Assembly: GCF_024498175.1 (NCBI RefSeq)
Contig: NZ_CP101823.1
Span: forward strand, 62,001 to 126,000
DNA: 64,000 nucleotides
Direction: 5' to 3'
Origin: Haloplanus salinarum
GTDB lineage: Archaea; Halobacteriota; Halobacteria; Halobacteriales; Haloferacaceae
Part shown: in pieces, positions 4,081 through 30,816 of the stretch
Position numbering within the stretch: the first letter of the stretch is position 1
Layout of the letters: the number at the start of each line of letters is the position of its first letter
The notes under the pieces: model-generated
Told to the model about the DNA's origin: nothing
Database searches by the model: none
Seen by the model: only the letters and a program-made list of their open reading frames with translations
Position numbers and translations under genes: made by a program

Positions 4081-4830
4081 TCACTCCGCCGGCGTGCCGG
4101 GTGCGGCCTCGCCCTCCGGCGCGTCAGCGTCTGCGCCCGCGAGCGCCGGACTGCGGAGCACGAGCAGTCCGAACCCGACCTTCGCGACGGTGTCGAGGAG
4201 GAGGAACCCGGCCGCCTCGGCCGTCGGCGACACCAGGCCGAGGCCGGTGCCGACGAGCCACCAGACGGGGTAGACCGTCCACGACGCCCCGATCAGGACC
4301 CGGAGCGCGGCGAACGTCGACCGGGTCGCCTCGTCCCGGTCGCGGGCCTCCCGCCCGAGGGCGACGACGACGAAGTAAAGCACACAGAGGAAGGCGACGG
4401 TGCTGACTCCCCACCAGACGTACCGGTAGGTCGGGACGCCGGACAGCGTGGCCGCCACCCCCGTCACGATCATGAACACGTCGGCCGCGACGGCGCCGAA
4501 CAGCGTCTCGCCGTCCGCCCCGACGAACAGACCGAGGCCGATCAACAGCAAGGGCGTGGTGAACAGCCAGTCGGCGTACCGCGCCCAGTGGAGGCGCAGG
4601 GTGCCGCCCCGGACCGCCACCTCGGCCACGCCGACGCCGAGCGCCATGGCCAGGTACGCCCCACAGGCGACGGCCGGCACGAGCGCCGCGACGACGTGGA
4701 CGCCTCTCGCGCGCGGGTCCTCGACCCCGCGTCCACGGACCGCGACGTACAGCGCCGCGAGCCCCATCACGGCCGTGCCGACGGCGAACCAGCCCGCGCC
4801 CGCGACGGGCGACACCGGCGTGTCGAACAT
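4081..4830 (-). CDS. microbial rhodopsin, proton-acceptor Asp present, donor Asp replaced by Gly
   Basis: A 249-residue seven-helix retinal protein. Helix C reads RYADWLFTTPLLLIG. Arg84, Asp87 and Thr91 match bacteriorhodopsin R82, D85 and T89, while Gly98 sits where the cytoplasmic proton donor D96 belongs. Helix G has Asp213 and the Schiff-base Lys217 in LLDTVAKVGFG. Helix D keeps the D115 equivalent. The motif is therefore D-T-G. It could be an outward proton pump with direct or slow reprotonation, or a sensor; no Htr transducer lies directly beside it. A Bat-box-like motif ends 38 nt before the ATG. I call it bacterio-opsin-like rather than bop because of the missing donor. Confidence 0.9.
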   Translation of the reverse strand: MFDTPVSPVAGAGWFAVGTAVMGLAALYVAVRGRGVEDPRARGVHVVAALVPAVACGAYLAMALGVGVAEVAVRGGTLRLHWARYADWLFTTPLLLIGLGLFVGADGETLFGAVAADVFMIVTGVAATLSGVPTYRYVWWGVSTVAFLCVLYFVVVALGREARDRDEATRSTFAALRVLIGASWTVYPVWWLVGTGLGLVSPTAEAAGFLLLDTVAKVGFGLLVLRSPALAGADADAPEGEAAPGTPAE

Positions 4831-27141: not shown

Positions 27142-28170
27142 ATGACAGATCAGGACACCGCGTTCACGCCCGAGGCGGCCGTCGACCACTGTCGACGCCA
27201 CGGTGTCGTCCCCGAGGGGGCGGCGGCCACGGCGCGCTCGCTCGGCGGCGGCGTCTCCAATCACGTCTACGAGGTGACGTGGGAGGACGGCTGTGTCGTC
27301 GTGAAGCGTCCGCTCCCGAACCTCGCCGTCGAGGAGGACTGGCCGGCCGACGTCGACCGCGTCCACAACGAGGCGGCGGCGATCCGCACCTACGCGTCGG
27401 TCCTCGCGGACGCCGACCTCGCGGCCCGCGTCCCCGGCGTCGTGAGCGAGACGGACGACCACGTCGTCGCCATCGAGTGTGCGCCCGCGGACGCGACGAT
27501 GTGGAAGGCGGAACTGCTCGACGGCCGGGTCGACGCCGCCGTCGCCGCCGCCGTCGGCGAGGTCCTCGGCACCGTCCACGACGCCGTGGCCGACGACCCG
27601 GCGGTCCGCGAGACGTTCGCCGACAAGCGCCCCTTCGATCAGTTGCGCGTCGACCCTTACCACCGCGCGACGGCCCGGCGTCATCCCGACGTGGCCGACG
27701 CCATCCGGACGGAGATCGACCGCATCATGGACGTCTCCCGCACCCTCGTCCACGGCGACTACAGCCCCAAGAACGTCCTCGTCGACCGCCGTTCGGGGGC
27801 CGTTCCCTGGGTTCTCGACTTCGAGGTGGCCCACTGGGGCGACCCCGCCTTCGACACCGCGTTCATGTGCAACCACCTCTACATCAAGTCGATCTACAAC
27901 CACGGCGCGCACGAGGCGTACGCGGACGCGGCCGCCCGGTTCTGGGACGCCTACGACGCCGCCGTCGCGTGGGACATCGAACACGAGACGGTGCGGGAAC
28001 TCGCGGTGTTGATGCTCGCCCGCGTCGACGGCAAGTCGCCCGTCGAGTACGTCGAACGCGAGGCGGTCGCCGACGCGCTCCGCCGGGTGGCGAAGGCGAC
28101 GCTCCGCGGCGAGGCGGCGACGCTCGACGAGTTCGCGGCGTTGGCCCGCGAGGAGGCGGCGGCGCTATGA
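27142..28170 (+). CDS. APH-family phosphotransferase (choline/methylthioribose kinase-like)
   Basis: A 342-residue small-molecule kinase. The N-lobe has a Gly-rich loop (LGGGVSNHVYEVTW, 34-47) and Lys55 in VVVKRP. The catalytic loop is HGDYSPKN (His204, Asp206, Asn211) and the metal Asp226 is in VLDFEVAHWGDPAFD. The kinase core resembles 5-methylthioribose and choline kinases more than antibiotic kinases. It overlaps the start of the enolase-like gene by four bases (ATGA), so the two are co-expressed and may act in one pathway. The substrate is unknown. Confidence 0.88.
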   Translation: MTDQDTAFTPEAAVDHCRRHGVVPEGAAATARSLGGGVSNHVYEVTWEDGCVVVKRPLPNLAVEEDWPADVDRVHNEAAAIRTYASVLADADLAARVPGVVSETDDHVVAIECAPADATMWKAELLDGRVDAAVAAAVGEVLGTVHDAVADDPAVRETFADKRPFDQLRVDPYHRATARRHPDVADAIRTEIDRIMDVSRTLVHGDYSPKNVLVDRRSGAVPWVLDFEVAHWGDPAFDTAFMCNHLYIKSIYNHGAHEAYADAAARFWDAYDAAVAWDIEHETVRELAVLMLARVDGKSPVEYVEREAVADALRRVAKATLRGEAATLDEFAALAREEAAAL

Positions 28171-29438
28171 CCGACATCGTCGGCGTCGACGCGTGGGAGG
28201 TGCTCGACTCGCGGGGCGACCCCACGGTCCGCGTCCGGGTCGACACCGCCGACGGGTCGGGGACGTTCACCGTCCCCGCCGGGGCCAGCACGGGCGCCCA
28301 CGAGGCCGTCGAGCGACGCGACGGCGGCGACCGCTACGGCGGGCGGGGCGTCCGCGAGGCCGTCGCGGCGGTCCGCGACGAACTCGAACCGGTTGCGGTC
28401 GGGCGACCAGTGACCGACCAGCGGGGCGTCGACGAGGCGCTCGCCGACCGCGACGGCACCGCGGACCTGTCCCGCCTCGGCGCCAACGCCGTCCTCGGCG
28501 TCTCGGGCGCCGTCGCCCGCGCCGCGGCCGCCGCGACCGACCGCCCGCTCTACGAATCGCTGGCCCCGTCGCCGGGGCCGGGATCCATCCCGCTTCCCAT
28601 GATCAACGTGCTCAGCGGCGGCCTCCACGCCGCGGCCGACCTGCCGATCCAGGACTTCCTGATCGTGCCAACGGGCGCCGAGACGTACCCCGAGGCCCTG
28701 GAGACGGCGTGGGCGGTCCGCCGGGCGGCCGCGAAACGGCTCGGCGACGGCGAGCACCCGCCGTCGGTCGCCGACGAGGGCGGCTTCGTCCCCGACGTGG
28801 CCGACGCCGACGCCGCCTTCGAGACCCTCGCCGGCGCCGTCCGCGACGCCGGGTTCGAGCCCGCCCGCGACGACGTGGCGTTCGCGGTGGACGTCGCGGC
28901 GACGCATTTCCACGACCCCGACCGCGACCGGTATGCGCTCGGCGACACAGCGGTCGATCGCGGGGCGATGATCGACCGCGTGGCTTCGTGGGTCGGCGAC
29001 TACCCCCTCGTCTCGGTCGAGGACCCGCTGGCCGAGGACGACTGGAAAGGGTGGGCGCGGCTGGCCGACCGCGTCGGCGACCGCGTCCAGTTGCTCGGCG
29101 ACGACCTGCTGGCGACGAACCCCGACCGTCTGGAGCGGGCGGTCGACGGCGGCGTCGCCAACGCGGTCCTCGTCAAGCCGAACCAGGCGGGGACCATCAC
29201 CCGGGCGCGGCGGGTCCTCGAACGCGCGCAGGCGGCCGGGTGGGCGCCCGTCGTCTCCGCCCGATCCGGCGAGACCTGTGATTCGACCATCGCCGACCTC
29301 GCCGTCGCCTGCGACGCGGGACAGATCAAGATCGGATCGCTCGCCCGGTCGGAACGCCTCGCGAAGTACAACCGACTGCTCGGGATCGACCGATCGTCCG
29401 ACGGCGGCTTCGCCGGCGCGGCGGCGCTCGCGCCGTAG
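28167..29438 (+). CDS. enolase paralogue with altered catalytic residues
   Basis: A 423-residue enolase-superfamily protein, full length. Metal ligands Asp242, Glu285 and Asp312 are intact, as are the base Lys337, Lys388, Glu204 and His154. However, the catalytic His of the SHRSGET motif is Ala365 (SARSGETCD), and the Glu of IQEF is Asp163 (IQDF). Thus 2-phosphoglycerate dehydration may be impaired or the substrate changed. It overlaps an APH-type kinase gene, unlike a glycolytic eno locus. It could still be a working enolase; a second, canonical eno should exist elsewhere in the genome. Confidence 0.88.
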   Translation: MTDIVGVDAWEVLDSRGDPTVRVRVDTADGSGTFTVPAGASTGAHEAVERRDGGDRYGGRGVREAVAAVRDELEPVAVGRPVTDQRGVDEALADRDGTADLSRLGANAVLGVSGAVARAAAAATDRPLYESLAPSPGPGSIPLPMINVLSGGLHAAADLPIQDFLIVPTGAETYPEALETAWAVRRAAAKRLGDGEHPPSVADEGGFVPDVADADAAFETLAGAVRDAGFEPARDDVAFAVDVAATHFHDPDRDRYALGDTAVDRGAMIDRVASWVGDYPLVSVEDPLAEDDWKGWARLADRVGDRVQLLGDDLLATNPDRLERAVDGGVANAVLVKPNQAGTITRARRVLERAQAAGWAPVVSARSGETCDSTIADLAVACDAGQIKIGSLARSERLAKYNRLLGIDRSSDGGFAGAAALAP

Positions 29439-29597: not shown

Positions 29598-29636
29598 GCT
29601 CACGACTCCACGTCGGGGGATGTTGGATATTTTGCC

Positions 29637-29659
29637 GTTACTCGCGTTACGACCGTTAC
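29637..29659. repeat. three GTTAC repeats with exact 9-bp period
   Basis: GTTAC begins at 29637, 29646 and 29655, i.e. GTTACTCGC-GTTACGACC-GTTAC, within 60 bp upstream of the CARF-like regulator and just after a TATTTT run. The regular period could present a protein with repeated sites on one face of the DNA, but may be chance. Confidence 0.3.
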
Positions 29660-29692
29660 TTAGAAGCGGCGCCGCCGCGTCGGCATCGGCGA

Positions 29693-30466
29693 ATGAACGT
29701 CGCCGAGCGCGTCCACGTGATGCCGTTCGGGTTCGAACACGACCGGATCGTCGAACCCGCACGAGAGTACCGCGCCGACCGCGTGATCCTGCTGGACTGG
29801 CTCGCTCCGGACGTCGAACGCCCGTCGTACCACGACGACGTGCTCGCGGCGCTGGCGGCGGCCGGCATCGAGACCGAGCGCCGCGACTGCGAGCTGTTCG
29901 ACCTCTACGACTCCATCGCGACGGTCGCCGAGATCGCAACCGCCGAGGCCACCCCCGACGGCGAGGACGACGTCGCCAACGAGGTGTACGTGAACCTCGC
30001 GACGGGGAGCAAGATCACCGCCATCGGCGGCATGATCGCGTGTATGGTGACCGAGGCCGCCCACCCCTACTACGTCCGCGCGGAGCGGTACGCCTCGGGG
30101 ACGGAGCCGGTGGGCTACGGGATGGAACTCGCCGTCGACCTGCCGACCTACCCGATGGACCGCCCCGACGACCAGCAGGTCGCCGTGCTGTGCCGGCTCG
30201 CCGACGAGGGACCGCACTCGAAGAAGGCGTTGATCCGCTTCGGCGCCGACCGGGAACTGCCCTTCATCCGGGACTGCGACCGGCCGTTCGACGGGTCGGG
30301 GAAGCCGACCAAGCAGTCCTACGCACGGCTCAGGAGACACGTCGTCGATCCGCTCCAGGAACGGGGGTTCGTGGCCGTCGAACCCGCCGGAACCGCTCGG
30401 CGCGTGCGGACGACCGAGGCCGGCCGGAACGCAGCCCGGGCCTTCGGCTACGTCCGTGACACCTGA
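29693..30466 (+). CDS. CARF-like/winged-helix transcriptional regulator (HFX_2341/DUF6293-like)
   Basis: A 257-residue protein. The N-terminal Rossmann-like domain starts VHVMPFGFEHDRI and carries Asn101-L-A-T-G-S-Lys107, the position and pattern of the ligand loop in CARF domains (N-x-T-G-G-T-K). The C-terminal part is a winged helix (LCRLADEGPHSKKALIRFGA ... VRTTEAGRNAARAFGY). CARF proteins bind cyclic oligonucleotides or related nucleotides in CRISPR systems, but no CRISPR locus is present here. It ends 19 bp inside the convergent wHTH gene. Upstream DNA carries a palindrome and a triple repeat that could be its operator. Confidence 0.75.
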   Translation: MNVAERVHVMPFGFEHDRIVEPAREYRADRVILLDWLAPDVERPSYHDDVLAALAAAGIETERRDCELFDLYDSIATVAEIATAEATPDGEDDVANEVYVNLATGSKITAIGGMIACMVTEAAHPYYVRAERYASGTEPVGYGMELAVDLPTYPMDRPDDQQVAVLCRLADEGPHSKKALIRFGADRELPFIRDCDRPFDGSGKPTKQSYARLRRHVVDPLQERGFVAVEPAGTARRVRTTEAGRNAARAFGYVRDT

Positions 30467-30816
30467 TCGTCCAGGCTCTCGACGACCGGCTGGAGTCGGT
30501 CGTCGTCGTCGAAGAACTCGATCAGCGTCGCCGTGCTGTACGCGAGTTCGTACGCCGGCCGTCCCTTGCCGACGGGCGACCGCTCGCCCGCGTCCGCCGT
30601 CTCGACGTGTCCCTCGGCGTCGAGTTCGTTGAGCGCGCGGGTCACGTCCGCCTCGGAGACGGTACCGACCACGCCGTCGACGGCTGCGGCCTCCTCGCCG
30701 CAGACGCGGCTGATCTCACCCGCGTGAGCCGGCGTCCGTCCCGTCTCGGACAGGCGTGCGATACCGAGCAGGGTGAGGCGCTGGACGAGCGTCGTCGCGT
30801 GGAGCTGGTCGGTCAT
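30448..30816 (-). CDS. winged-helix DNA-binding protein
   Basis: A 122-residue protein that looks like a stand-alone winged helix. LVQRLTLLGIARLSETG is the first helix pair, EADVTRALNELDAEGHVET the recognition helix and wing, and GRPAYELAYSTATLIEFF a C-terminal dimer helix, similar to haloarchaeal PadR/MarR-like regulators. The ATG at 30816 removes a short unconserved N-terminus. It is convergent with, and overlaps, the CARF-like regulator, so the two may interfere transcriptionally. Confidence 0.7.
   Translation of the reverse strand: MTDQLHATTLVQRLTLLGIARLSETGRTPAHAGEISRVCGEEAAAVDGVVGTVSEADVTRALNELDAEGHVETADAGERSPVGKGRPAYELAYSTATLIEFFDDDDRLQPVVESLDDQVSRT

Follow-up and report, generated by a model that had tools for sequence, protein, structure and literature searches.

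A stand-alone transcription factor with a CARF domain and a winged helix, a paralogue of HFX_2341 (Crr) within the haloarchaeal PF19810/PF22665 family, is our reading of P0001, the 257-aa product of the gene at 29693..30466 (+ strand) of the window, i.e., the 64,000-nucleotide stretch of Haloplanus salinarum DNA that was analysed. P0001 would respond to a ligand and repress its own gene via upstream repeats, a reading to which we give a probability of about one half. The open reading frame announced in a preliminary description of this DNA was recovered with its translation at these positions. A CRISPR-free CARF regulator as such is not new: HFX_2341 has set the precedent (PMC11434293), and the P0001 subfamily is already present in PADLOC as a CARF3 model. 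CARF domains have mostly been studied as CRISPR sensors. PF19810 proteins occur almost throughout their order, and the P0001 type shows no tie to Cas1 or Cas10, which makes this family well suited to asking what CARF domains detect apart from immune signals.

Domain composition and predicted structure

Both domains named in the preliminary description, an N-terminal CARF domain carrying the NLATGSK pattern and a fused winged helix, were confirmed. Residues 6-133 (29708..30091, +) matched PF19810 (HFX_2341_N; E=1.3e-38, 132.6 bits, Pfam cut-off 30), and residues 149-251 in the C-terminal part (30137..30445, +) matched the winged helix PF22665 (DUF6293_C; E=1.4e-26, 93.3 bits, cut-off 27). The structure prediction that had been proposed as a check was run with AlphaFold2, with 53 aligned family members as input, and reached a mean pLDDT of 94.1 and a pTM of 0.88. 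In a Foldseek search, the best 50 PDB matches of the model were all CARF proteins, among them the ring nucleases Sis0811 and Sso1393, Csm6, Cam1, Can2, Card1, Cad1 and Cdn1. The TM-scores of these matches over the query were modest (0.33-0.48), as expected where a single domain is common. Csa3 itself was absent among these 50, and a phmmer search of P0001 against the PDB sequences gave no match. By its predicted model P0001 is a member of the CARF superfamily.

Putative ligand pocket

Two loops of the CARF domain stood out in the alignments with 115 short-type relatives, the beta1-alpha1 loop PFGFEHDR (residues 11-18; 29723..29746, +) and the beta4-alpha4 loop NLATGSK (residues 101-107; 29993..30013, +). 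E15 and R18 in the first loop, N101 in the second and, in addition, D29 were invariant, while G105 was present in 89 and K107 in 73 of the 115 members. The second loop and a weak match to the Csa3 model TIGR01884 (19.7 bits, below its cut-off of 60.2) speak for a Csa3-type sensor of cyclic oligoadenylate, linked to CRISPR or to another antiviral system. Csa3 requires Phe10, Phe14, Gly96 and Arg98 for cA4 (PMC8844856). Its second cA4 motif (G96, R98) has counterparts in G105 and K107, positions taken by Ala and Thr in many relatives (Thr at position 107 in 34 of 115). In the first motif (G9, F10, F14), matched by eye in a sequence comparison without superposition, G13 and F14 of P0001 correspond to G9 and F10, and no aromatic residue occupies the Phe14 position. 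Counterparts of three Csa3 residues and none of Phe14, which is required for cA4, argue against Csa3-like cA4 binding, as far as can be judged from sequence. By analogy with other CARF proteins, P0001 could plausibly respond to a nucleotide signal of another kind.

Distribution and association with CRISPR-Cas

The genome, a 3.45-Mb single contig of 99.96% completeness, lacked Cas1 as well as any Cas10 palm domain; the claimed absence of a CRISPR locus held as far as these two genes show. An SMODS cyclase was likewise missing from the genome, and DAC-domain proteins were present. Within the order, PF19810 was found in 379 of 392 genomes. A strong short-type match, taken as a best E below about 1e-29 and read by hand, so that weaker short-type genes may be missed, occurred in 192 genomes, of which 66 had Cas1, vs 65 of the 200 genomes without it (34% vs 33%, p=0.75). 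Co-occurrence with CRISPR, named beforehand as the finding that would overturn the claim of a CRISPR-free regulator, was rejected on these numbers. Cas10 was restricted to three of the 392 genomes, all in one genus (g82) and this genome not among them, hence Cas10-made cyclic oligoadenylate cannot be the usual ligand. Since Cas10 and SMODS cyclases are both missing from the genome, Cas1 shows no association, the Csa3 model score is below its cut-off and the Phe14 position is unmatched, we consider the Csa3-type sensor very unlikely.

The three loci of g82 (L126, L127, L128) are type III loci with Cas10, the sole ones found in the 392 genomes, and CRISPR-like repeats were seen in L126 and L127. 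They lie about 10-12 kb from the short-type CARF-winged-helix gene. A partnership was rejected and the proximity read as a coincidence of synteny, because a fourth locus of the genus (L129), which lacks Cas10 and the type III locus, has the intervening gene order unchanged.

Gene neighbourhood

Upstream of the regulator gene lie an APH-type phosphotransferase gene (27142-28170; PF01636) and an enolase gene (28167-29438; PF00113/PF03952). Of the "enolase-like pair" described before, one member is therefore an enolase and the other is not. The sensor kinase in the neighbourhood was borne out by its HisKA_7TM and HisKA domains. The supposed second winged-helix protein, encoded at 30448-30816 (- strand), retained a weak similarity to winged helices (E=0.058) and had no Pfam match at E<=0.01. 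This convergent gene, coding for 122-131 aa, is kept across the genus, and its 3' end overlaps that of the CARF gene by 19 bp (window 30448-30466).

To compare neighbourhoods, genes predicted by a home-made gene finder were clustered across about 60 loci. Within the genus the downstream genes are kept; beside two of the six same-genus orthologues the kinase and enolase genes are gone, and the order of genes shows no other conservation. An operon of the enolase and kinase genes with the P0001 gene was rejected for this absence, and the functional hint formerly drawn from the neighbours is left without support. Beyond close relatives, the clustering gave no conserved partner gene. The gene thus looks like a stand-alone unit.

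In six loci (L078, L115, L114, L116, L091, L071) a divergent gene for a protein of 110-134 aa has the intergenic region in common with the CARF gene. The divergent proteins of L071 and L114, the two tested, matched ArsR-like helix-turn-helix families. ATAC-type repeats lie in the intergenic region of L078, L115, L114, L116 and L091.

According to two reports (PMC7790460, PMC9650030), the bacterial regulator RtcR, with a divergent CARF domain, governs an operon for RNA repair that damaged tRNAs regulate. By analogy P0001 might sense damaged RNA ends; no conserved neighbour of any kind favours this, and we regard it as highly improbable.

Upstream repeats as candidate operator

Ahead of the gene lie three 9-bp direct repeats of the type CGTTAC-N3, CGTTACTCG, CGTTACGAC and CGTTACTTA (29636..29662, +), the last of which ends 31 bp before the P0001 start codon. 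We treat them as a candidate operator on the basis of a genus footprint and motif counts. In six same-genus orthologues the repeat block stands out while the flanks diverge; one unit is degenerate in two of the six, and one orthologue has four GTTAC units upstream. The exact triple repeat occurs a single time in the whole genome, and with up to two mismatches allowed, 0.01 chance occurrences of the triple are expected in the window. Exact two-unit matches in 11 genomes of the genus fell in 9 of 12 cases at promoters of P0001's own family, including a paralogue in another genome (G296), a count that shared descent explains in part, so that these matches are not independent.

Shortly ahead of its start, the paralogous CARF-type gene of G296 (L248:3330-4196) bears two exact CGTTAC-N3 units, with the repeats near 4238. 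An intergenic near-match to the two-unit repeat was seen at position 3969 of L249 (G000:C1:134668), and the same context recurs in G296 (L247). A search for a regulon by motif was abandoned; most of the remaining near-matches in the own genome fall within predicted genes.

The repeats are the new detail of this analysis. Their position in front of the gene suggests that P0001 controls its own production; they could also be the target of a different factor or be in part a feature of the core promoter. For a binding assay, the array supplies a defined stretch of DNA. P0001 would dimerise through the CARF domain, by analogy with the fold, and its winged helices would bind the repeats near the own start and repress the gene. 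A ligand, presumably nucleotide-like as in other CARF proteins and not made by Cas10, would alter DNA binding. Because the motif is rarely seen elsewhere, P0001 may have few targets in the genus and act mainly on its own gene. Most likely, P0001 is a dimer that responds to a ligand and represses the gene encoding it. The related HFX_2341 has been reported as a broad regulator, so this view of few targets may be wrong.

P0001 could, like HFX_2341, be a global regulator that represses many genes for nutrient transport and other functions, possibly with c-di-AMP from DacZ as the trigger. Deletion of HFX_2341 alters many genes, cAMP or c-di-AMP has been put forward as its signal by the authors of that work (PMC11434293), and the DAC-domain proteins of the genome would fit. 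P0001 is no orthologue of HFX_2341, however, and the genome has its own; the CGTTAC-N3 motif is nearly confined to promoters of P0001's family, and the P0001 gene is missing in some congeners. A global role for P0001 thus appears doubtful.

Repeat signal in the family

Upstream regions of 57 family members were enriched in self-similarity at 9 and 18 bp over 533 control regions (p about 2e-5 and 1e-4, with no correction for the lags that were tried), while other lags were weaker or null. The period-9 signal was gone in 51 held-out family members, and a family-wide period-9 operator was rejected on these data and retained for two clades only. Nine held-out members of one clade still showed the signal (p=1e-6), and five from the wider clade of the window did so weakly (p=0.006), both clades having been defined after both data sets had been seen and consisting of related members; the remaining 46 showed no period-9 signal. 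The claim is for this reason confined to a clade-level candidate operator. We propose tentatively that a non-CRISPR branch of CARF-winged-helix proteins controls itself via period-9 direct-repeat operators with a clade-specific unit, CGTTAC here and ATAC-type in another clade, and responds to a housekeeping nucleotide signal that has nothing to do with Cas10.

Comparison with known CARF proteins

RtcR, the bacterial RNA repair regulator, resembles P0001 in using a CARF domain for gene control outside CRISPR; it is a bacterial sigma-54 activator with another output domain and no close relative of P0001. Csa3 of Saccharolobus solfataricus (TIGR01884) has its architecture in common with P0001, with CARF N-terminal to the winged helix and a glycine and a basic residue in the beta4-alpha4 loop. 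P0001 differs by its score below the model cut-off, the missing Phe14 counterpart and the lack of cas genes, both nearby and, for Cas1 and Cas10, in the genome.

The PADLOC model CARF3--CARF (PDLC01847) matches P0001 over its full length (residues 1-253, E=5.3e-84); no difference was seen, and no function is attached to the model. The HFX_2341 type is covered by a different PADLOC model, and both models probably derive from a published CARF classification.

A 2024 study presented HFX_2341/Crr of Haloferax mediterranei as a global regulator similar to Csa3 that occurs also in CRISPR-negative haloarchaea and whose overexpression lowers cas transcripts (PMC11434293). A scan of the genome_contigs collection with P0001 as query confirmed no relative. 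Against the HFX_2341 equivalog NF051475 P0001 scored 17.6 bits (cut-off 500), whereas a second copy in the genome, the HFX_2341 orthologue, scored 586.7 bits. The two types separated with full support in a quick tree. From these sequence comparisons P0001 is a divergent paralogue of HFX_2341, not its orthologue. Both consist of the same two Pfam domains, a Csa3-like CARF and a winged helix, and both types are found with or without CRISPR and with no link to cas genes. P0001 is the shorter and divergent form, with ATGSKI where the HFX type has SSMPRP, and this genome carries both.
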